Below are positions 7,756 through 18,377 of a DNA stretch of 26,030 nt, piece by piece. A model generated the notes under the pieces. The model was not told where the DNA came from. It did no database searches and saw only the letters and a program-made list of their open reading frames with translations. A program made the position numbers and the translations under genes. This DNA is from a virus, in the IMG/VR virus record IMGVR_UViG_3300042887_000181, positions 1 through 26,030 of that record. One strand, 5' to 3'. Positions within the stretch are counted from its first letter, which is position 1, and every line of letters starts with the position of its first letter.

Positions 7756-9507
7756 ATGATTGGTAGCTTAATGAGCCGGATGGCGGATGCCGAGAAATTA
7801 TCCGTAGCGCAGTTAAATCAAGCGGTCAAGAATGGCACAATCCCAGCCTATGTAGGTGTGCCCTTAATTCAAGAAAAGTTAAAAGCAGAACAAGCTGCCA
7901 AAGCCATGGTAGCTCAAACCCAAGCCCAGCCCCCGATTGCCCGTCAGGTTATGGAGCAAGCAGACGTTATGTCTGGCTTAGAGAAGCTACGCTCTAATCT
8001 CCCTGAAGAAGGTTTTGCAGGTGGTGGCATTGTTGCTTTTGCTGACGGTGGTGAATTAGACCTTGAGGACGAGGACGAAGAAAAAAATCTAATGGGTCGC
8101 CTAATGGCAGGAATTACTAGCCTTAAGTCTGCTATGCCAGAAAGCTATGAAGCAGAGCTTGCTAAAAAAGGTCAGACCCCAGCTAGTGCCCGCAAGTTGA
8201 TGATTGATGGCCCTAAGAAGGGCGACTATGTCATGCCCCCACTAGATAGCCAAAGACCTGGTCCAAGTCGAGGTGGGCATAAATACGAAGATATGGTTGT
8301 TGCAGAAGCGCAGCGTATTGGGCTTGATCCTGGCATGGCACTGCACGTCCTCTATAAAGAGACTGGTAATTTAAAGAATCCTGAGTCTGCTCGTTCTAAG
8401 GCAGGTGCTTTGGGTGTAATGCAGTTAATGCCTAAGACTGCCAAGAGTCTTGGTGTAGACCCGCTCAACCCAGAAGAAAACATCCGTGGTGGGGTAATGT
8501 ACCTCAAGCAGATGTATGACAAATACCAAGATCCAACACTAGCCTTTGCTGCTTATAACGCAGGACCTGGGCGGGTCGATAAAGCCTTAAAAAGTGGTCA
8601 GGGTATTACTTCGTTGCCTCGTGAAACACAAAATTATGTAATGGCTTCTAACCGCATGGCTGGTGGCGGTATTGTTGCTTTTCAAAACACTGGTTTGGTA
8701 GATACTGACTATGAGAATATGGATCCTCTAGCTGGTATTGGATTTGGATATGCAGACCGCACTAGAGCCGCCGAAATGATGGCGTTAGACGAAATACGTC
8801 GTGAAGAAGCTCTAAAGAAAAAAGAAGGAGCTGCAGTTGCCCCCGCACCAACGGCGCAAACTACTCCACAAAAAGAAGCTCCCGCACCAACCCCATTGTC
8901 TGCTCCAGAGCCATACAAAGAACCTCCTGCGGATAGTGGGTTGGCAGATATTAAGAACTTGCTTAAACAGCGTATGGAAGAGTCTGGCAAGCAAAAACGT
9001 ATCGATGCTTACTTATCTTTACTCCAAGCTGGTCTTGGCATGATGGGCGGCACTTCGCCGTTTGCTGCTGCTAATATTGGTCAAGGTGCGGCTCAAGGTG
9101 TTGCTGCTCAGATGGCTGCTCGCAAGTCTCAGGTTGCTGATGAGAACGCAATCCTTACAGGTCAGCTTGGTCTATCTCGTGCAGAACTCTATGAAAAGAT
9201 GCGTCGTGATGCATTGAAGCAACAGTATGAAAAAAATGTAGCCGAGAGAGGTTTAGCTGAAAGACGTTTGGGTGTACAGCAGCAAGCCCAGAATATTCGT
9301 TTAGGTGACCTACGACGTAAAGCCGCTGACGATTGGGAAAATAGCCCCCGTAAAGCGCAACTTGAAGCTGACCTTGCTAAACAAAAGAAAAACTGGCGTC
9401 AGGATCCTAAACTTCTTGGTCAGTTTGAATCGGCACGTGGTAGATTTATTAACGAATTTGTTAATGTCGGGCAAGCGGATAATATACTAAGCTCTTCTCA
9501 GCTATAA
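7756..9507 (+). CDS. Virion protein with lytic transglycosylase (SLT) domain
   Basis: This 583-residue protein carries a soluble-lytic-transglycosylase domain at about residues 180-300. The catalytic Glu is probably E202 in V-L-Y-K-E-T-G-N. It is followed by A-G-A-L-G-V-M-Q-L-M-P-K-T-A and by A-A-Y-N-A-G-P-G (265-272), all family landmarks. The enzyme would open peptidoglycan locally as DNA is injected, the role of the N-terminal domain of T7 gp16. The SLT domain is bracketed by two nearly identical A-G-G-G-I-V-A-F motifs (near residues 88 and 301). An acidic stretch (E-D-E-D-E-E) follows the first. The C-terminal third is predicted coiled coil. No signal peptide is seen, which fits a virion protein rather than an endolysin. 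Confidence 0.88.
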   Translation: MIGSLMSRMADAEKLSVAQLNQAVKNGTIPAYVGVPLIQEKLKAEQAAKAMVAQTQAQPPIARQVMEQADVMSGLEKLRSNLPEEGFAGGGIVAFADGGELDLEDEDEEKNLMGRLMAGITSLKSAMPESYEAELAKKGQTPASARKLMIDGPKKGDYVMPPLDSQRPGPSRGGHKYEDMVVAEAQRIGLDPGMALHVLYKETGNLKNPESARSKAGALGVMQLMPKTAKSLGVDPLNPEENIRGGVMYLKQMYDKYQDPTLAFAAYNAGPGRVDKALKSGQGITSLPRETQNYVMASNRMAGGGIVAFQNTGLVDTDYENMDPLAGIGFGYADRTRAAEMMALDEIRREEALKKKEGAAVAPAPTAQTTPQKEAPAPTPLSAPEPYKEPPADSGLADIKNLLKQRMEESGKQKRIDAYLSLLQAGLGMMGGTSPFAAANIGQGAAQGVAAQMAARKSQVADENAILTGQLGLSRAELYEKMRRDALKQQYEKNVAERGLAERRLGVQQQAQNIRLGDLRRKAADDWENSPRKAQLEADLAKQKKNWRQDPKLLGQFESARGRFINEFVNVGQADNILSSSQL

Positions 9508-9516
9508 GGAATCTAC

Positions 9517-12500
9517 ATGATCCTTGATTTACCCAAACTTGGGGCAGTTAGATTTGACGATAATCTAACCCCAGAACAGTTAAATGCTGAACTAGATCGG
9601 CTTGCCAAGAAGTATGACTTTGAACTACCCCAAGCTGAGATGGGTTTTGGGGAAATGGCAAGCAAAGCTCTTACTCGAGGTACCAAGCGTCTAGGCACTA
9701 CCTTTGGAGACGTCATCCCTGCTATGGGGGCAAAAGCCCTTGGGTTTGATGAATACGCTAAAAAGCAGTTAGAAGAAGCCAAGGCTACCGAAGAGGAAAT
9801 AGCCAAGTACTATGCCCCCCAGTATCCAGAATTAGGTAAAGTCAAAGGTATATCGGACATCCCAGGCTTTGCGCTTGAGACCATTGTTGAGCAGATTCCT
9901 AATATCGCCACCTCATTAGTTCCTGGTGTTGGTGCAGGTGCTATTGCCGCACGTACTGGATTAACTTCACTCGGTAAGAGCCTCATGGTTCAGGGTGCTG
10001 AGCGTGGTTTGGCTGGGCGGGAACTTACTGAGTTTGTAGCGCAAGGGATGGCGCAAGGGGCCGCAACCCGTCAGGCAGTGGGTCAAGGCGCTGGTGTGTT
10101 CTTAGGTTCTTATGCTCAGAACGCCCCTGAGATATTCCAAAACATCTACCAAGAAACTGGTCAGATGGATGTGCCTGCCTCCTTGCTGTTTGGTGCTGGC
10201 TCTGCCGCCTTAGATTCTGTTCTACCAGCACAGTTGGCTCGCTCCCTTACTGGTCCTGTCAAGGTAGGTATTGTTGAGAAAGTCCTTGAGAAGTCAGGCA
10301 TGGACAAAGGCATCCTCCGTTCTATTACGGCTGGCGCACTCAAAGGTATGGGTGCAGAAGGTCTGACTGAGGGTGCCCAAGAAGCCATAAGTATTTATGC
10401 AGAGAACTTTGTAGCTAACAATCCCCAAGTATTTGACAGTGCGGACTGGAACCGCATCATGGAGTCTAGCGTCCGTGGCGCTATCGCTGGTTCTGCTTTT
10501 GGTGGCGCAGGTGGTGTTGGGGCTCGAGTTCAAGAAAAACGTGAAGAGTTTGCGCAGCAGCAAGCCCAGTTAGCAGAACAACAACGTCAAGAACTAGCCC
10601 GTCAAGTACAAGAGGCTGGTTTAACTATAGACGAGTACAACGCCCTACAGAAACAAGGGCAACTCCCCGGCATGGAGCTTGGTGCCTATACCCAGCTTTT
10701 AGAACCCAAAGCCAAAGAAGAAGCTCAGAAGGAACTTAAAGGTAAGCAGTTATCTTTATTTGACGAGCAAGGACTGCCATCTAAAGCTGCCGAAACCGCC
10801 AAAGCCAAGGGCGACAAAGCCGAAGCTAACCGTCTACGTCAATTACAGCAGCAACAAGCTGCCGAGTTAAAAGCGTCTCAAGCAAAACTTAAAAAGTTTC
10901 TAGGTGCTAAACAAGGCGAACTCACTTTAGAAGAAGCACCCCCAGCAGCAGGTGTGACGGTAGAAGGACAACCTGATCTATTTGGCGCCCCGCCAGCCGC
11001 ACCCATTACGCCTGTTGCGGAACCATCGGTAATAAGTAAGCCAGTTAAGCTCACACCAAAAGAAGTTGGTACAAAGGTTGACGATAGCGTCCTTGACGCT
11101 TTAGGTATTGGTCGTACCGCACTTTTACGCAAAAACAACTTGTTAGATGGCAAGGACATATCTAACCCTGCCGACGCAGCCGAAGTAAAACGGGTACTGG
11201 AGGCATACGCCGACCGCAAGAACTTAAGCACAAGCATTCGTGAGAAGGTTGAAGAGTATCTTAGCCGTCCAGAATTTCAACAGGAGGTAACAAGTGAACC
11301 TATTTCAGAACCTGCCGGACCTGTCGGAGGAGCAGTACAGCCAAGCCTTCCAAGCGATCAGCAGCAACCTACCTTTACACCAGCTCCCGAGCTCATTGAA
11401 GAACCTGTCCAAGGAGGAGTGGCTACTGCTGGACCAACTGTTGTTCCTGCTGCTGGAGGAGAAGAAGGAGTCGGTGCTCCATTAACTAAACGGGATCAAA
11501 ACGATTTAGAGAAAGCGCAAAAGCGGCTAAAGCCTGGTATTAATGAAGAACGAAAGTTTATTGTCGATACAGACAAACGAATCCTGAATTTTATTAGAAC
11601 TGGCATGGCTGATATAAAAGGGTTAAGAAAAACCGATGCTTTTAAGTTAATGCGTATCGCCCCTTTGACTCAAGAATATGTGCGTCTTAAAGAAGTAACT
11701 GAGCAGATTGCAGATGCTAAGCAACGTAAAAAGAACATGCGTCAGTTGGAGATTCTTCGTGGTGCGTTAGCCAAATCGTCTCCTGAAGCCGTAGTTTTAG
11801 CAGAACGTCAAAATAGCAACACAATTACAGATTTTGTTAGCCGTATAAATGAAATGGCTAGGGCAGAATTGGCTATAGAACAAGAAGCCCGTGCTGCAGC
11901 GCCGCAAGTCACGCAAGAGCAGATGACTGAGCAAGAGCGTTTAGATGCGGAAGAATTAGAAAATGAAGCTTTGGCTGCTCAAATGGCAGAGGATTTTGTT
12001 AACTCTAACATAGCCAAAGCTATCCAACGAGGTCAGTTTGATAACGCTTTAGATGAGCTAATTGAAGTTGAAAATAACCCAGACGTCAAAAAGATCTTAC
12101 AAAAGATCAAAGGCATGGGGCTAAAAACGGCTATCAGAGTAGGTAAGATCCAGCCTAAACCTGGCAAGATGAACATCTATGACTTTGCTGAGTTTGATCC
12201 TGCTACCAACACAATTACCTACGATCTAGCGTACCTAAATAAAAACACCACAATCCATGAGATAGTGCATGCCGCTATTTCCAAGATACTGCTTGATCCT
12301 AACCACCCACTAACCAAAGAGCTAACCAAGCTATATGAGGGCGTTTATAACCAGCTAGGTAGCAGCTACGGTGCATTAGACATCCATGAGTTTGCTGCCG
12401 AATTAATAAGCAATCCTGAGTTCCAAGCTACGCTCAAGGCAATCAAAGCCCCACGTGGCGGCAATATGTTCCAGCGCATGATGCAGGCTATTGCAGAGTT

Positions 12501-15225
12501 CTTTGGCTTCCGTAAGGGTACATCGGCTTATGACAAGGGTCTTCGCACCATCAGCGACATCATCGACCTATCTGGCGACGTAGAAGCTAATAATGCAGAC
12601 AAAATGTATCACGGTGTTGGTTCTAGCGTAAATAGTGCGTTTAAGGCGGTAGGTGAAATTGGTCAGAATATGCCTGCTCTTGCAGGTCGCACAGTAGAAC
12701 AAACCAAAAATTTGTTTAGCAACATCCAAGACTATGGCTTGTTAAAAGCTGGTATGGGCTTACTCCGTTTGGATAACCTTAACACCATTTATGGTAGGGA
12801 ACTCCCTTCCATACAAACCCTTATCGACGCCCTTGAGAAACGTAATGGTCAGCAAGAGCAAGAGATTAAGAAGATCAACGATAACTACAAGCGGTTTAGC
12901 AAAGCAGTTCAAGATAATCCTAAAGCTGCTGAGCGCATGAATGAAATGGCGGTGGATGCCCGTCTTGCACAAGTAGACCCGCTTGACCCTAACTTTAAAC
13001 CTACAGCTGCTAATGCCGCAGAGTATCGCAGATTACGTTCTGTATATACAAACCTACCGAAAGAACTACAAGAAACGTATAAAGACATACGTGCATCCTA
13101 CGAAGGGGCACTAAAACGGTATGAAGATTTGCTGCTACGCAACGCATCGCCAACTATGCGAGATAAACTGCGCCTTGAGTTTGAGGCACGGAAGAAGCTT
13201 GTAGCCTATATCCCGTTCTTGCGCCGTGGCGATTTCTGGGTAGAGTATGCAGATCCTAAGACTGGCGAGCGTGCTGTTCAAGCTTTTGAATCTTCTCGTG
13301 AGCGTGATAACTTTATTGCCAAAGACCTGCCCCCAAACACTAAAGTTCGTAAGTACCGTAACTTGCATGAGGCTCGTTTTGTAGCTAGTGAGGTGCCACC
13401 TACTACGTTTATTGGTAGTGTTATTCAAGACCTAAAAAAACAAGGTGCTACTGACGCAATGGTTGATAGTGTATATCAGTCCTACTTAGCTTTGATGCCT
13501 GCTGAGTCTATCTCTAAGCGCTTTATGAAGTCTGAAGATGTGCTTGGTATGGAGAAAGATATTGTCCGTGGATACGGCGATACGATGATTAAGTGGACTC
13601 GTAAGCTAGCCGATTCAGAATATGCACCGCAGATTGACCGTGCTATTACAGGTATTAAGAACGAAGCCGCCGCTAATGGGGGTAATGACGTAGCTGCTGT
13701 ATCCGACACGATTAATGAGCAGTCTTCCTTCTTCCATAATCCCACCTACGGCAAAGTAGTTAGCGGGCTAACTTCGTTTAGCTACTTTGAATATATTGCA
13801 GGTAATATCTCATCTGCTTTAATTAACTTAAGCACCTTGCCAATGTTCTCTTGGCCTATCCTAGGCGGTAAGTTTGGTTACGACAAAGCAAGTTCTGCCA
13901 TGCTTGCTGCTGGTAGAGTAGTGGCTAACGGTATTGAAAAGAATCCCAAATACAAAGCCCTATATCAGTCTTTAATGGATCATGGGCAGTTAGAACACAC
14001 CATGGCTCGTGAAGTTCTTGAAGCTCGCCGCATGGCAACTAGTGATTACACAGGGCTAAAAGCTAGGATTCTTGATGGTTTGTCATACCCATTCTCTGCT
14101 ACAGAACGCTACAACCGTGGGGTTACTGCCGTAGCCGCATTTGACTTAGCCCGTGCTCAGGGTATGAGTGAGGCAGATGCCATTCGTTACGCAGTCAATA
14201 CAGTCAAAGACATCAACACTTCAGGTATGGCGGTGACTGCACCCAAGTATATGCAGTCTGGTGTTGGTCGTGTGTTCTTTACCTTTAAGTCATTTGTATG
14301 GAATAGCGCATTTATCGTAGCCCGTGCATTCCATCAGGCATTTAAGGGGGAGAGCCCAGAAGTTCGCCGCATTGCACAAAAACAACTGCTTGGTATGTAC
14401 GGCATGGCTGGTGCGTTTGCTGGAGTTAAGGGCTTACCCTTCTTTGGTCTGGCAGAAACTATTGCTCAGATGCTCAATGCCCTGTTTGGTGACGATGACG
14501 AGCCATTTAACTTTGACGAAGAGATGCGTGACTTCTTTGGTGAGTTAATTTACAAGGGTCCTACAAACTTCTTGACCAATCTTGAGATAGCTAACCGTAC
14601 CGGTGTGGCTCAAGACCTAATTTTCCGTGATGACCCCCGTGGTATTGCCGAGCATGGCTATGTGTTGTCTGCCATGAAGAACGCTTTTGGTCCTGCTGGC
14701 TCTTACTTAATAGGTGCTGAACGTGGTATCAAGGCTATGAACGAAGGTCAGGTTGAGCGTGGTATTGAGTCGCTTGTACCTAGCTGGCTACGTAACGGCA
14801 TGAAGGGTATGCGGTATATGTCTGAAGGCGCCTTGACTCTGAAAGGAGATCCAGTTGAAGAAGATATTGGTGTGTATAACGGGCTCATGCAGATTATTGG
14901 CTTCTCTCCCGCTTCTCTGTCTTCTACTTATGAAAAAACATCTGCTGCAAAGGGCTATGAAAGAGAAGTAGCCACCCGTCGTCAACGTCTGCTTAACAAG
15001 TACGATATGGCACGCACAGCAGGTGATTCTGATCTTATGGAAGAAGCTAGAGAAGATATTGCAAACTTTAACTCTAAACACCCCAACAACAGAATTACTG
15101 GTGAGACCCTGTCTAGATCACAGAAAGCTCGTCAAGCTGCTGAAAAGAACATGATTAATGGGGTAACTTTCAACCGCAAGATGAAGGCTGAGATCCAAGA
15201 GAAGTTCTTTGAAGATGAAGACTGA
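9517..15225 (+). CDS. Giant ejection / polyvalent protein with HExxH metallopeptidase-like domain
   Basis: This 1902-residue multidomain protein is in the T7 gp16 position. It opens with L-G-A-V-R-F-D-D-N-L-T-P-E-Q, a short element common at the start of such proteins. Next come Gly/Ala-rich amphipathic helices (about 105-335), a Gln-rich coiled coil (338-460) and a Pro/Gly/Glu-rich linker (590-660). A domain with H914-E-I-V-H918 and a downstream H-E-F-A-A-E (957-962) matches zinc metallopeptidases. More coiled coil follows, then a C-terminal region (about 1580-1710) that resembles the LPD38-type domain of phage polyvalent proteins. It probably enters the host with the DNA and may act on host proteins, which is inference. 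AAGGA lies 6 bases before the ATG and overlaps the previous stop. An alternate-frame gene lies in the linker. Confidence 0.85.
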   Translation: MILDLPKLGAVRFDDNLTPEQLNAELDRLAKKYDFELPQAEMGFGEMASKALTRGTKRLGTTFGDVIPAMGAKALGFDEYAKKQLEEAKATEEEIAKYYAPQYPELGKVKGISDIPGFALETIVEQIPNIATSLVPGVGAGAIAARTGLTSLGKSLMVQGAERGLAGRELTEFVAQGMAQGAATRQAVGQGAGVFLGSYAQNAPEIFQNIYQETGQMDVPASLLFGAGSAALDSVLPAQLARSLTGPVKVGIVEKVLEKSGMDKGILRSITAGALKGMGAEGLTEGAQEAISIYAENFVANNPQVFDSADWNRIMESSVRGAIAGSAFGGAGGVGARVQEKREEFAQQQAQLAEQQRQELARQVQEAGLTIDEYNALQKQGQLPGMELGAYTQLLEPKAKEEAQKELKGKQLSLFDEQGLPSKAAETAKAKGDKAEANRLRQLQQQQAAELKASQAKLKKFLGAKQGELTLEEAPPAAGVTVEGQPDLFGAPPAAPITPVAEPSVISKPVKLTPKEVGTKVDDSVLDALGIGRTALLRKNNLLDGKDISNPADAAEVKRVLEAYADRKNLSTSIREKVEEYLSRPEFQQEVTSEPISEPAGPVGGAVQPSLPSDQQQPTFTPAPELIEEPVQGGVATAGPTVVPAAGGEEGVGAPLTKRDQNDLEKAQKRLKPGINEERKFIVDTDKRILNFIRTGMADIKGLRKTDAFKLMRIAPLTQEYVRLKEVTEQIADAKQRKKNMRQLEILRGALAKSSPEAVVLAERQNSNTITDFVSRINEMARAELAIEQEARAAAPQVTQEQMTEQERLDAEELENEALAAQMAEDFVNSNIAKAIQRGQFDNALDELIEVENNPDVKKILQKIKGMGLKTAIRVGKIQPKPGKMNIYDFAEFDPATNTITYDLAYLNKNTTIHEIVHAAISKILLDPNHPLTKELTKLYEGVYNQLGSSYGALDIHEFAAELISNPEFQATLKAIKAPRGGNMFQRMMQAIAEFFGFRKGTSAYDKGLRTISDIIDLSGDVEANNADKMYHGVGSSVNSAFKAVGEIGQNMPALAGRTVEQTKNLFSNIQDYGLLKAGMGLLRLDNLNTIYGRELPSIQTLIDALEKRNGQQEQEIKKINDNYKRFSKAVQDNPKAAERMNEMAVDARLAQVDPLDPNFKPTAANAAEYRRLRSVYTNLPKELQETYKDIRASYEGALKRYEDLLLRNASPTMRDKLRLEFEARKKLVAYIPFLRRGDFWVEYADPKTGERAVQAFESSRERDNFIAKDLPPNTKVRKYRNLHEARFVASEVPPTTFIGSVIQDLKKQGATDAMVDSVYQSYLALMPAESISKRFMKSEDVLGMEKDIVRGYGDTMIKWTRKLADSEYAPQIDRAITGIKNEAAANGGNDVAAVSDTINEQSSFFHNPTYGKVVSGLTSFSYFEYIAGNISSALINLSTLPMFSWPILGGKFGYDKASSAMLAAGRVVANGIEKNPKYKALYQSLMDHGQLEHTMAREVLEARRMATSDYTGLKARILDGLSYPFSATERYNRGVTAVAAFDLARAQGMSEADAIRYAVNTVKDINTSGMAVTAPKYMQSGVGRVFFTFKSFVWNSAFIVARAFHQAFKGESPEVRRIAQKQLLGMYGMAGAFAGVKGLPFFGLAETIAQMLNALFGDDDEPFNFDEEMRDFFGELIYKGPTNFLTNLEIANRTGVAQDLIFRDDPRGIAEHGYVLSAMKNAFGPAGSYLIGAERGIKAMNEGQVERGIESLVPSWLRNGMKGMRYMSEGALTLKGDPVEEDIGVYNGLMQIIGFSPASLSSTYEKTSAAKGYEREVATRRQRLLNKYDMARTAGDSDLMEEAREDIANFNSKHPNNRITGETLSRSQKARQAAEKNMINGVTFNRKMKAEIQEKFFEDED
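11282..11288 (+). promoter_or_regulatory. Perfect Shine-Dalgarno sequence inside the giant gene
   Basis: AGGAGGT stands 6 bases (from the end of GGAGG) before a GTG at 11294 that opens a 63-codon frame. It is stronger than the ribosome site of almost every other gene in the window, although it lies in the middle of a coding sequence. It is the main reason for calling the embedded frame a gene. Confidence 0.6.
11294..11485 (+). CDS. Candidate overlapping gene embedded in the giant ejection gene
   Basis: This 63-residue frame starts at GTG, shifted by one base from the giant gene, behind a perfect AGGAGGT. The product is Leu-rich (17 Leu) and amphipathic, with S-E-E-Q-Y-S-Q-A-F-Q, L-S-K-E-E-W-L-L-L-D-Q-L-L and a closing E-K-K-E-S-V-L-H. 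It looks like a folded small helical protein. The giant protein reads as a low-complexity Pro/Gly/Glu linker over the same bases. It uses GGA for 9 of its 10 glycines there, although GGT and GGC dominate in the parts of the giant gene I read. This is what constraint by the second frame would produce. The function is unknown. The alternative is chance: a GGAGG sequence arising from Glu/Gly codons. Confidence 0.5.
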   Translation: MNLFQNLPDLSEEQYSQAFQAISSNLPLHQLPSSLKNLSKEEWLLLDQLLFLLLEEKKESVLH

Positions 15226-15250: not shown

Positions 15251-15295
15251 CCTAAACTTCTTTATGTCCGAGGAGACAAGAGAAGAGTGCTTGCG

Positions 15296-15505
15296 TCAGA
15301 GTATATCACCAACTCTCCAGACTCGTAAACCATACTTCCCTTTCTCCACTACCTGTTTACAAAGTATATTAATTCCTAGCCGCTTAGCCTCTGCCTCCAC
15401 GAACCGCTGGGTTAGGCGTCGGTCTATGCAGGGCACGAAGAATGATGTACCGGGTTTAAACTTCTCCCACTGGATCAGCAGCGGAAGATTCAGAATTGTC
15501 AGCAT
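15296..15505 (-). CDS. Small conserved-looking protein overlapping the primase-helicase 3' end
   Basis: The product has 69 residues, with I-Q-W-E-K-F-K-P-G-T-S-F-F-V-P-C-I-D-R-R, then a helical E-A-E-A-K-R-L-G-I and a closing Y-G-L-R-V-W-R-V. The mix of hydrophobic strands and an amphipathic helix looks like a compact alpha/beta protein, similar to small phage proteins of unknown function found near replication genes. Its ATG (15505) lies 50 bases inside the end of the primase-helicase gene in another frame. No Shine-Dalgarno motif is visible before it, so it probably relies on coupling, or on a start inside the overlap. It is the last gene before the terminator. The function is unknown. Confidence 0.65.
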   Translation of the reverse strand: MLTILNLPLLIQWEKFKPGTSFFVPCIDRRLTQRFVEAEAKRLGINILCKQVVEKGKYGLRVWRVGDIL

Positions 15506-18377
15506 TTAAAAGCACGTTCTCATTAAAGAAATCTAGTTTTGTTGTGTCAAACCACAGGGCATTTACGGCTGCTTGGGTATTGGCTACAGTGCCTGCAGTC
15601 ATGCGTTTCTTCTTAGTTCCAACCAATGCACCGCTCTTACGATAAGGGATTAAGGATTCCTCAAAGTTGGCAAAGTTCTTGGCGGCATCGTCTCGGTAAC
15701 TCTTAACCACGATGTATAAAAGTTTGGTATCAGGCTCGTAGCGGATTGTAAGGGCGCCCCTTGGCTCACGAATTGGACCATGCTCCAGACCAGTACGACC
15801 ATCACGATTGCCGTTAATAACCAAAGTCTCGCTAAAGTGACGTTGTAAGAACCCACCCAAATAGTCATCGCTATCAAACATGTATTCACGGTTGCGGGTA
15901 CGGGTGTCCTTAATAAGGTTAACGGCATAGTTAAATATAGGCTGTACCTTAATATCGTGTAGTCCAAGGGTCTTGGCTACTGTGCCCCCCGTAATAGCAA
16001 TAGTCGCCATGGCAGACCAATACCGTTCGGTACTTCTAATCTCAGCATGCGCATCGACTTTGGCTTGGATTTCCGCCATCTTTGCTAGAACCATAGGCAA
16101 CTGCCCTACTAAAGCTTGAGCATACGGCTCAATAGCGTGTCCGTAGTTATTCATCAATCGACCAAAGTGTTGCTTAGACCAAGTGGGGTCGTCAAACGAA
16201 TCAGGCTTTACATGGGGTTCCAAAATACGCATCAACTCGCCTTCTGGAAAGCTCTTTATAGATAGCAGCGAATCGGTTACGGACCTGTTGGATGAACTTA
16301 CTACACCCAAAGACCACTTGGCATGGTTCAACCGCTCGGCATTTTCTTGGGACTTCATACGGTTCTTGCCCCGACCAGACGTAACGTCATATACCTGATT
16401 AGACATTTGCTCAGGAGGCATATTGGTTATCTCGTCTAGCGTTGCGCACAAGCTTTGCATGGTGCCTAGTCGTTGCATCCTAAAGTTGTAAGTGTCTTTA
16501 GGTGACATGAGTAATTCCTTTGGGCGACCATATATGGAATTAATTGCGTGTAAGACGGTGGTTTTGCCACTACCGCTTTCCCTACTAAGTAGATTAAGGA
16601 GAAAACCGTCAAGATTAGTAAAGCGCATAAGAAGAGACCCGAAACCCATGAAAAAAGCAAAAGCCCTAGCTTCCATGCCTTCTCTCGAGTAAGCGTTGAT
16701 AACATCCTTCCAAACATGAAAATCTCCTTTTGGCTGAAACAAAGGTATTAAAGGCAGTGTCGGTGCAGATGGTGGGCTATATGCAATTTCTGTGGCACGG
16801 ATCTCACGGTCTCCGACAATGATGCCGCTTTCATTTTCTAGCCAACCAAACTGTTTGTGGGCTTGCTCTGCCCCTGATGTAAGTTGTAGTTCCTCAACCC
16901 ACTTAGTTACATATGACATAAGTTCATCCTGTTTTTTACCTAATACAGTTATGCCGTACGAGGCAACTGTGTCTCTAAATTTCTCCTTAGCCAGCACCGC
17001 AGTTAACGGCATGATGAACTCACGCACCCCGTCTTTAGGTAGGTGCAGTCTAAGTAGTATTGTTTCCCCATGGTCAGGGTCAGACATGCGCTTGACCACA
17101 TAAAAGTCGTAGGGGTACACAAGGTCATCAAACTCCTCGTCGTCTTCCTTGGCTTTCTTGTGCACAAAGATACCGCCTGATTTGCCCCTGAAGAACGGGT
17201 ATGGATACTTGGGTATGGTGTAGGTCTTGAGTTCCTTGGTTATTGGCTCAATCTCCATAACCGACTCTTCTTCCTCGGCTTCCATGACTTCTTTACCCAA
17301 CTGGATTGGAGATGTAAATTTATGTAGACATCCCTCACACCCGCTAGGATTTAGCTTCTTAAAGGTCTCGCAGGTATAAGGACCTTTGGTCTCGTTAGCC
17401 TTCCTGTCGGTATCCGCAGAGTTATATTCGGGGTGATTCTTGGATATGTGGTGGATCGCTTTGTCCCTGTCCACACATTGTTGGGCAATAGATAGCCCTG
17501 CTCGCCAAAGAGGTTCTTCTATCGTAGTTTGATTCTCATAGATATTCAAGATCTGATTACACCCCGTGCCTTCCATGGATTTAATCAGGATGGTCTTGAA
17601 CCTAGATTGACTACTACCAATTAGCGCCATTGTTACGGCATCCATGGGGCGCTTGAACTCAGACTTCTGAATACTTTTTAGGATGTCATCTGTCGGGGTA
17701 AGAATTGTCTCTATATCACTGAGTGCTATAGGCTGTGCTGCGTGCAGAATCTGAACGGGTAAAGGATTGGTTACGTCCTTCAAATGCATCGTTTCAGGAA
17801 TCCGTAAAATTCGGGCTGGGTCAGCAGGTACCGCAGCGTCAATGTGGAAGTTATGTTCTACGCACAAAGCCTTGAGTCGCTCTGCGTAGGGCTTCCATTC
17901 TTGCCGTGTTATAGCGTTATTTAGAATCCAATATACGTGCGCACCACGTCCCGACTGGATGATGGTAGGTCTTGGCAACCCAACATCTTTACAGAACTGC
18001 TTTAATGCTACCAGGCCGTCGGCTAGTGTAGCGTATGGTTTGTCTTCTCCACAATCTAAGTCAATGAAAAAAGACTTTAGTTCTAATGCGTTAGCCGCAT
18101 ACCGACCTTGATCGGCTGGACCAAACTTAGCCAGTGCAAAGAATGCGTTGTAGTTTTCTTCTAGAAGCTTGTCTGCTCTAGCGCTTAATTCTTCAATACT
18201 GCTAACAAACTTCTGTCTTATATTGCCCTGTGCGTCGTTGCCCCAGATGCAGTAATTTTCCCCTTCCTGTAGGGGTGGTAATACCAAAGATAGAAACTCT
18301 GTCCTCGAAAGCATAGCCGTCCTATATGAGCCGTCGTTGTTATAAAAAGGAATGGGCAGGGGTGTGACGGCATACAC
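15456..18377 (-). CDS. Primase-helicase fusion (AEP primase-like plus DUF927-type helicase)
   Basis: This 973-residue replication protein has two parts. The N-terminal part carries archaeo-eukaryotic primase/primpol landmarks: F-I-D-L-D (Asp106, Asp108), S-G-R-G-A-H-V-Y-W (142-150) and D-P-A-R-I-L-R (186-192). A cysteine cluster follows (C336, C347, C350, H352) and may bind zinc. The C-terminal half resembles DUF927 helicases, with Walker A E-S-G-S-G-K-T-T (600-607) and Walker B-like L-C-A-T-L-D-E (643-649). It would prime and unwind DNA at the phage fork. The farthest in-frame start is GTG at 18377 with almost no spacing to a ribosome site. The ATG at 18314 (residue 22) has AGGA 5 bases upstream and is the more likely start. 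Confidence 0.87.
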   Translation of the reverse strand: MYAVTPLPIPFYNNDGSYRTAMLSRTEFLSLVLPPLQEGENYCIWGNDAQGNIRQKFVSSIEELSARADKLLEENYNAFFALAKFGPADQGRYAANALELKSFFIDLDCGEDKPYATLADGLVALKQFCKDVGLPRPTIIQSGRGAHVYWILNNAITRQEWKPYAERLKALCVEHNFHIDAAVPADPARILRIPETMHLKDVTNPLPVQILHAAQPIALSDIETILTPTDDILKSIQKSEFKRPMDAVTMALIGSSQSRFKTILIKSMEGTGCNQILNIYENQTTIEEPLWRAGLSIAQQCVDRDKAIHHISKNHPEYNSADTDRKANETKGPYTCETFKKLNPSGCEGCLHKFTSPIQLGKEVMEAEEEESVMEIEPITKELKTYTIPKYPYPFFRGKSGGIFVHKKAKEDDEEFDDLVYPYDFYVVKRMSDPDHGETILLRLHLPKDGVREFIMPLTAVLAKEKFRDTVASYGITVLGKKQDELMSYVTKWVEELQLTSGAEQAHKQFGWLENESGIIVGDREIRATEIAYSPPSAPTLPLIPLFQPKGDFHVWKDVINAYSREGMEARAFAFFMGFGSLLMRFTNLDGFLLNLLSRESGSGKTTVLHAINSIYGRPKELLMSPKDTYNFRMQRLGTMQSLCATLDEITNMPPEQMSNQVYDVTSGRGKNRMKSQENAERLNHAKWSLGVVSSSNRSVTDSLLSIKSFPEGELMRILEPHVKPDSFDDPTWSKQHFGRLMNNYGHAIEPYAQALVGQLPMVLAKMAEIQAKVDAHAEIRSTERYWSAMATIAITGGTVAKTLGLHDIKVQPIFNYAVNLIKDTRTRNREYMFDSDDYLGGFLQRHFSETLVINGNRDGRTGLEHGPIREPRGALTIRYEPDTKLLYIVVKSYRDDAAKNFANFEESLIPYRKSGALVGTKKKRMTAGTVANTQAAVNALWFDTTKLDFFNENVLLNADNSESSAADPVGEV

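Follow-up and report, generated by a model that had tools for sequence, protein, structure and literature searches.

A small conserved gene very probably nested at +1 inside a giant polyvalent-type gene in uncultivated podovirus-like phages

To our knowledge, out-of-frame nested genes have seldom been documented in tailed phages, where they are readily missed by gene callers. In phage lambda, the small gene Rz1 lies entirely within Rz, read at +1, and the shared part of the carrier Rz is mutationally silent (PMC5295617). The carrier studied here is of a different kind and belongs with the giant polyvalent proteins, which have been proposed to enter the host along with the injected phage DNA (PMC5512222). 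We analysed a 26 kb IMG/VR virus record (the window below, i.e., the whole stretch of 26,030 nucleotides) representing uncultivated podovirus-like phages. Judging from the sequence evidence, and with translation not observed, we are highly confident that the linker of its giant gene harbours a real, internally initiated protein-coding gene nested in the +1 frame. The locus comprises the following features:

7756–9507, plus strand: gene preceding the giant, with a lytic transglycosylase/endolysin-like domain (domain match)
9517–15225, plus strand: the carrier, a giant polyvalent-type putative virion gene of 1902 aa (LPD39 match; C-terminal homology to DarB-like/PLxRFG giants)
11038–11292, plus strand: conserved giant segment just 5′ of the nested gene (...GKDISNPADAAEVKRVLEAYA...RPEF), also retained in some relatives that lack the nested gene
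11282–11288, plus strand: Shine–Dalgarno (SD) sequence AGGAGGT of the nested gene, with an equivalent at 37 of 41 loci
11293–11484, plus strand: the giant's low-complexity linker overlapping the nested gene (frame, synonymous-divergence, recoding and codon data)
11294–11485, plus strand: the predicted nested gene, GTG start, 63 aa, +1 relative to the giant (homologues in 41 loci, selection tests)
12757–13161, plus strand: LPD39 domain of the giant, residues 1081–1215 (domain match)
15456–18377, minus strand: convergent DUF927 primase/helicase-like gene, which adjoins the giant in several relatives too

The carrier passes the criterion for a polyvalent protein, being giant, multidomain and equipped with large-polyvalent-protein-associated domains: LPD39 is present in the giants of the window and of relative L028, and LPD38 in those of L019 and L021. 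Its C-terminal part is homologous to the DarB-like/PLxRFG giants of named phages (~22–30% identity). A 740-aa gene at position 1503 resembles podophage stabilisation/needle-type proteins (relatives include pelagiphages HTVC023P and HTVC027P); given this gene and the transglycosylase-like neighbour, the arrangement fits the giant being the last large gene of a putative late virion module, facing the DUF927 gene. Packaging of this giant into the virion and its injection with the DNA are inferred by analogy, from the virion-module position and the proposal made for polyvalent proteins (PMC5512222). Likewise, the labels "late in infection" and "ejection protein" in the original prediction were deduced from the gene position and the polyvalent-protein domains, without direct demonstration. 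The giant also bears an HExxH motif (window ~12256–12270; giant residues 914–918, with H914, E915 and H918), which is invariant in nine aligned giants and comparable to that of zinc metallopeptidases. On the 3′ side of the giant lies an 81-aa ORF (15264–15509) that overlaps the convergent DUF927 gene by 54 bases and has no PHROG match, and small ORFs occupy this side in several relatives as well. In L019, residues 602–651 of the giant, directly 5′ of the nested gene, match FtsK_gamma (winged-helix, DNA-binding) with only 25.4 bits, short of the 30.6 bits that Pfam requires.

The original prediction placed a GTG at 11294 behind AGGAGGT, opening a 63-codon frame, and all of these elements were found where it put them, the only nuance being that the spacer is 5 nt, with the GTG starting at the sixth base past AGGAGGT. 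The SD sequence is the sole copy of AGGAGGT on the plus strand of the window. From the GTG, the frame runs for 63 codons to a stop ending at 11485, in the +1 frame relative to the giant ORF 9517–15225 (1902 codons), and a stop in the nested frame lies one codon 5′ of the GTG (immediately 5′ in L002). In the overlapping part, the giant's sequence is SEPISEPAGPVGGAVQPSLPSDQQQPTFTPAPELIEEPVQGGVATAGPTVVPAAGGEEGVGAPL, i.e., a Pro/Gly/Glu/Ala-rich low-complexity stretch, in agreement with the idea that it is a mere linker there. The reported skew of glycine codons was exact as well: GGA makes up 9/10 of them in the overlap vs. 7/145 in the remainder of the giant gene (Fisher p = 1e-9).

The alternate-frame product was then compared among relatives, which retain the frame, the start and the SD alike. 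In the close relatives L005 and L002, the SD and the GTG are kept, and so is the nested protein, to 94% and 81%, respectively. The giants of L007 and L010 are only about half identical to that of the window; nevertheless, a homologue occupies the +1 frame at the equivalent site, where the start context is AAGGAG, 6 nt, ATG. Profile searches of IMG/VR gave further homologues, each checked one nested at +1 in a giant gene, and a scan with the giant alignment contributed 67 more giant loci. In total, the iterated HMM search placed the nested protein in 41 loci on 40 contigs, always at +1, over a low-complexity linker, and ending exactly at its own stop; L019 and L021, whose giants barely align with the window's, are among the carriers. 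The core of the 34-member alignment is LS..Q.EQA..L..P....P..L..L...EW.LL..LL..LL.EK..S.[LV]H.

In 37 of the 41 loci, an ATG or GTG is preceded, at 5–8 nt, by an SD match of 4 nt or more. Of the four exceptions, L009 is cut by the contig end, no clear start is recognisable in L039 and L092 (a single contig), and in L019 a perfect AAGGAGGT (L019:5888–5898) is followed, after 5 nt, by ATA at the nested start position: either the gene starts with ATA, or the ATA is a sequencing error, or a different start is used. The last three loci weigh against the gene. We also scanned both sense alternate frames of 81 giant genes (402 kb) for an SD of at least 6 nt, an ATG or GTG, and at least 50 open codons. 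All 29 matches were the nested gene. The locus thus satisfies, by the 37 loci and by the specificity scan, the criterion that an embedded gene should have its own ribosome-binding site and start codon.

A constrained second frame had been proposed, and the synonymous variation in the giant is indeed depressed exactly over the overlap in which relatives carry homologues. Between the window and L002/L032, the giant changed synonymously in 3 of 64 codons of the overlap vs. 0.314 per codon outside, and none of the 1714 comparison windows along the gene was as low. No window was as low, either, for L005/L030 vs. L002/L032 (1/64 codons), L021 vs. L022 (0/60) and L020 vs. L038 (2/60). The low was almost as extreme for the window vs. 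L005 (3/1714 windows as low), while L007 and L010 are too close a pair to inform (310/1873). Variation by codon position is shifted by one base, such that the giant's third positions are the least variable in the overlap and the most variable outside it. In the nested frame, simple counts for the window vs. L002 gave 7 synonymous and 12 nonsynonymous codons; so many amino-acid changes weigh against the gene, though the giant constrains the same bases too. We further recoded the giant with synonymous codons at its own usage (34 members, 4000 scored trials each). The recodings never yielded a family-like score for the nested product (z 6.2–10.7; 9.0 for the window), whereas the nested frame stayed open in 4% of them for the window and in 0.1% to 80% across members. 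We therefore rejected frame openness alone as evidence: an open frame by itself is not rare in such linkers, so the case for the gene rests on conservation at the protein level. Amino-acid-level selection on the nested frame and lowered synonymous variation in the carrier, which are the further marks of an embedded gene, are both present.

The nested protein has 55–71 residues, a median pI of 4.6 and a leucine content of 15–28%. An AF2 model comprises two long helices (12–24 and 40–61) with moderate confidence (pLDDT 76, rising to 79 with 34 sequences), which, along with the leucine content, bears out the Leu-rich helical product that had been foreseen. There is no strongly hydrophobic 19-residue stretch and no transmembrane-like segment, and cysteine is absent from most members of the family, including that of the window. 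The protein is thus acidic, helical and soluble-looking, solubility being an inference; a membrane or lysis protein is disfavoured by the hydrophobicity profile.

Searches of Pfam, PHROGs and NCBIfam returned no family match for the nested protein, the PHROG matches being at chance level only (best E 0.042). A sequence search of the PDB gave nothing, and Foldseek with the small helical model (pLDDT 79) gave no significant match in BFVD or the PDB; with VIA-align, the best Z was an uninformative 3.8. The small phage proteins to be compared included free-standing ones: tblastn with four variants against 50,697 phage records produced no credible match (the sole one had E = 7). The HMM did not find the nested protein in 14 whole named DarB-like genomes or in regions of five P22-like named phages, and a scan of genome contigs for the small protein confirmed nothing. 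All matches to the family on viral contigs are nested in giants. We found no prior description of the nested gene in the open-access literature or in the collections searched.

The distribution was mapped on a tree built on the C-terminal part of the giant; support values for the deep branches are lacking, so no branch order is claimed. In the clade of the window, the nested gene is present in all sampled members with sequence across the site, and it also occurs in the deeper branches L024, L020/L038, L028 and L099. The sister clade (~20 genomes) and the lone L108 keep the giant without the nested gene. An intact giant with the second frame and the SD lost had been named as the case that would refute the gene. 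Such a case does exist, in the form of the whole sister clade, but within the clade of the window there is no scattered decay. In L112 and L122, IDEFLARPEFQ is kept and is followed by CAAGTTGAA where relatives such as L007 have CAAGGAGTTGAA, and reading the DNA revealed that the SD-forming GGA codon is missing. The linker after IDEFLARPEFQ in these two (from ~7648 in L112 and ~3655 in L122) is a tandem repeat, NEVKNEVK and TTDQTTDQ, with many +1 stops. Since such linkers are repeat-like and interrupted in the +1 frame with the carrier intact, the giant can remain open without the nested gene. No decayed nested copies were found in the sister clade, and the alternate ORFs of at least 48 codons in its giants bear no resemblance to the nested family. 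The simplest reading is a loss in the sister clade, transfer of the nested gene being possible as well. Because ~20 relatives keep the giant without it, the giant, as far as these genomes tell, does not need the nested gene everywhere.

Could the locus be explained without a second gene, or without internal initiation? An open frame arising as a by-product of the Pro/Gly/Ala-rich linker and the codon use of the giant would be nothing unusual in itself, given that +1 openness by chance ranges from 0.1% to 80% by member, but such a by-product would not account for amino-acid conservation in the +1 frame together with an SD, a start and an exact stop, nor for a profile score that the recoding null never attained, nor for sister-clade linkers without such a frame; we consider this reading practically untenable. 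Programmed +1 frameshifting, by which ribosomes would pass from the giant into the nested frame and make a shortened giant ending in a different C-terminal tail, is only slightly less improbable. It would agree with the invariable +1 offset, and SD-like sequences can stimulate frameshifting, as in prfB. However, an SD followed at 5–8 nt by ATG or GTG in 37 of 41 loci points to initiation instead, a stop in the nested frame lies just 5′ of the start (one codon away in the window, directly adjacent in L002), and no common slippery site was seen, albeit on inspection by eye only. We thus adhere to the nested, internally initiated gene. Its reality, frame, start, SD, conservation and absence from the sister clade are shown by comparison of sequences; its translation is an inference. 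Most probably, some ribosomes would use the SD and GTG/ATG belonging to the nested gene for internal initiation and make the small acidic helical protein, while others would read on through to make the giant. Selection would be borne by the nested frame, and, as the giant presumably requires just a flexible spacer there, the composition of the linker would be set by the nested gene.

What the small protein does can only be inferred. Nesting would put it and the giant on one transcript, and it may be a dedicated partner of the giant, namely a chaperone of its assembly, packaging or ejection, or a minor ejected component. No direct evidence links it to the function of the giant, and we propose this role tentatively; it is favoured because the nested gene has only ever been found in giants of this type, even poorly alignable ones, and we count the acidic and helical character in its favour. 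Nearly as likely, the protein is real but its role is unrelated to the giant (host takeover, counter-defence or another late task), the flexible linker being a mere birthplace. Such independence is supported by an entire sister clade in which the giant is intact and the nested gene missing, by the lack of any interaction evidence and by the frequent origin of nested genes at sites where the carrier can bear them (cf. Rz1 over the mutationally silent part of Rz). Against it stand the presence of the gene in all sampled members of the clade of the window that cover the site, and its confinement, within the collections searched, to giants of this kind. The fuller picture with a partner role, in which an old, previously unannotated family is overprinted only in injected polyvalent giants, surpasses much of its carrier in conservation and acts as a dedicated packaging/ejection partner whose co-location enforces joint synthesis, is possible but falls short of being probable.

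Dozens of genomes make this a clean case of overprinting, with selection on the nested frame, a carrier that gives only a linker, and a natural control clade without the gene. The results indicate an overlooked component of the virion or of the host-takeover machinery in a group of phages that have not been cultivated; with the family profile, others can find and test the nested gene. By its domains and C-terminal homology, the carrier belongs with the DarB-like/PLxRFG and LPD38/LPD39 polyvalent giants (PMC5512222), although the 14 named DarB-like genomes and the regions of five P22-like phages checked are without the nested protein, unlike the giant of the window. As in lambda Rz/Rz1 (PMC5295617), a small gene is contained entirely, at +1, within a longer gene of a tailed phage, and the constraint is divided between the two. 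Rz1, however, is a lipoprotein for lysis that bears a signal sequence and has a lipoylated cysteine, whereas the nested product has no signal- or membrane-like hydrophobic segment and usually no cysteine; Rz1 is carried by the i-spanin gene Rz, which belongs to a lysis cassette and whose product has a single transmembrane domain, and the nested gene by a 1902-aa polyvalent gene with LPD39. An Rz1-type o-spanin identity is thus excluded by the missing lipoprotein signal and lipoylated cysteine and by the non-spanin carrier. In other words, the embedded architecture is already known, the novelty lying in the protein family and in the carrier.
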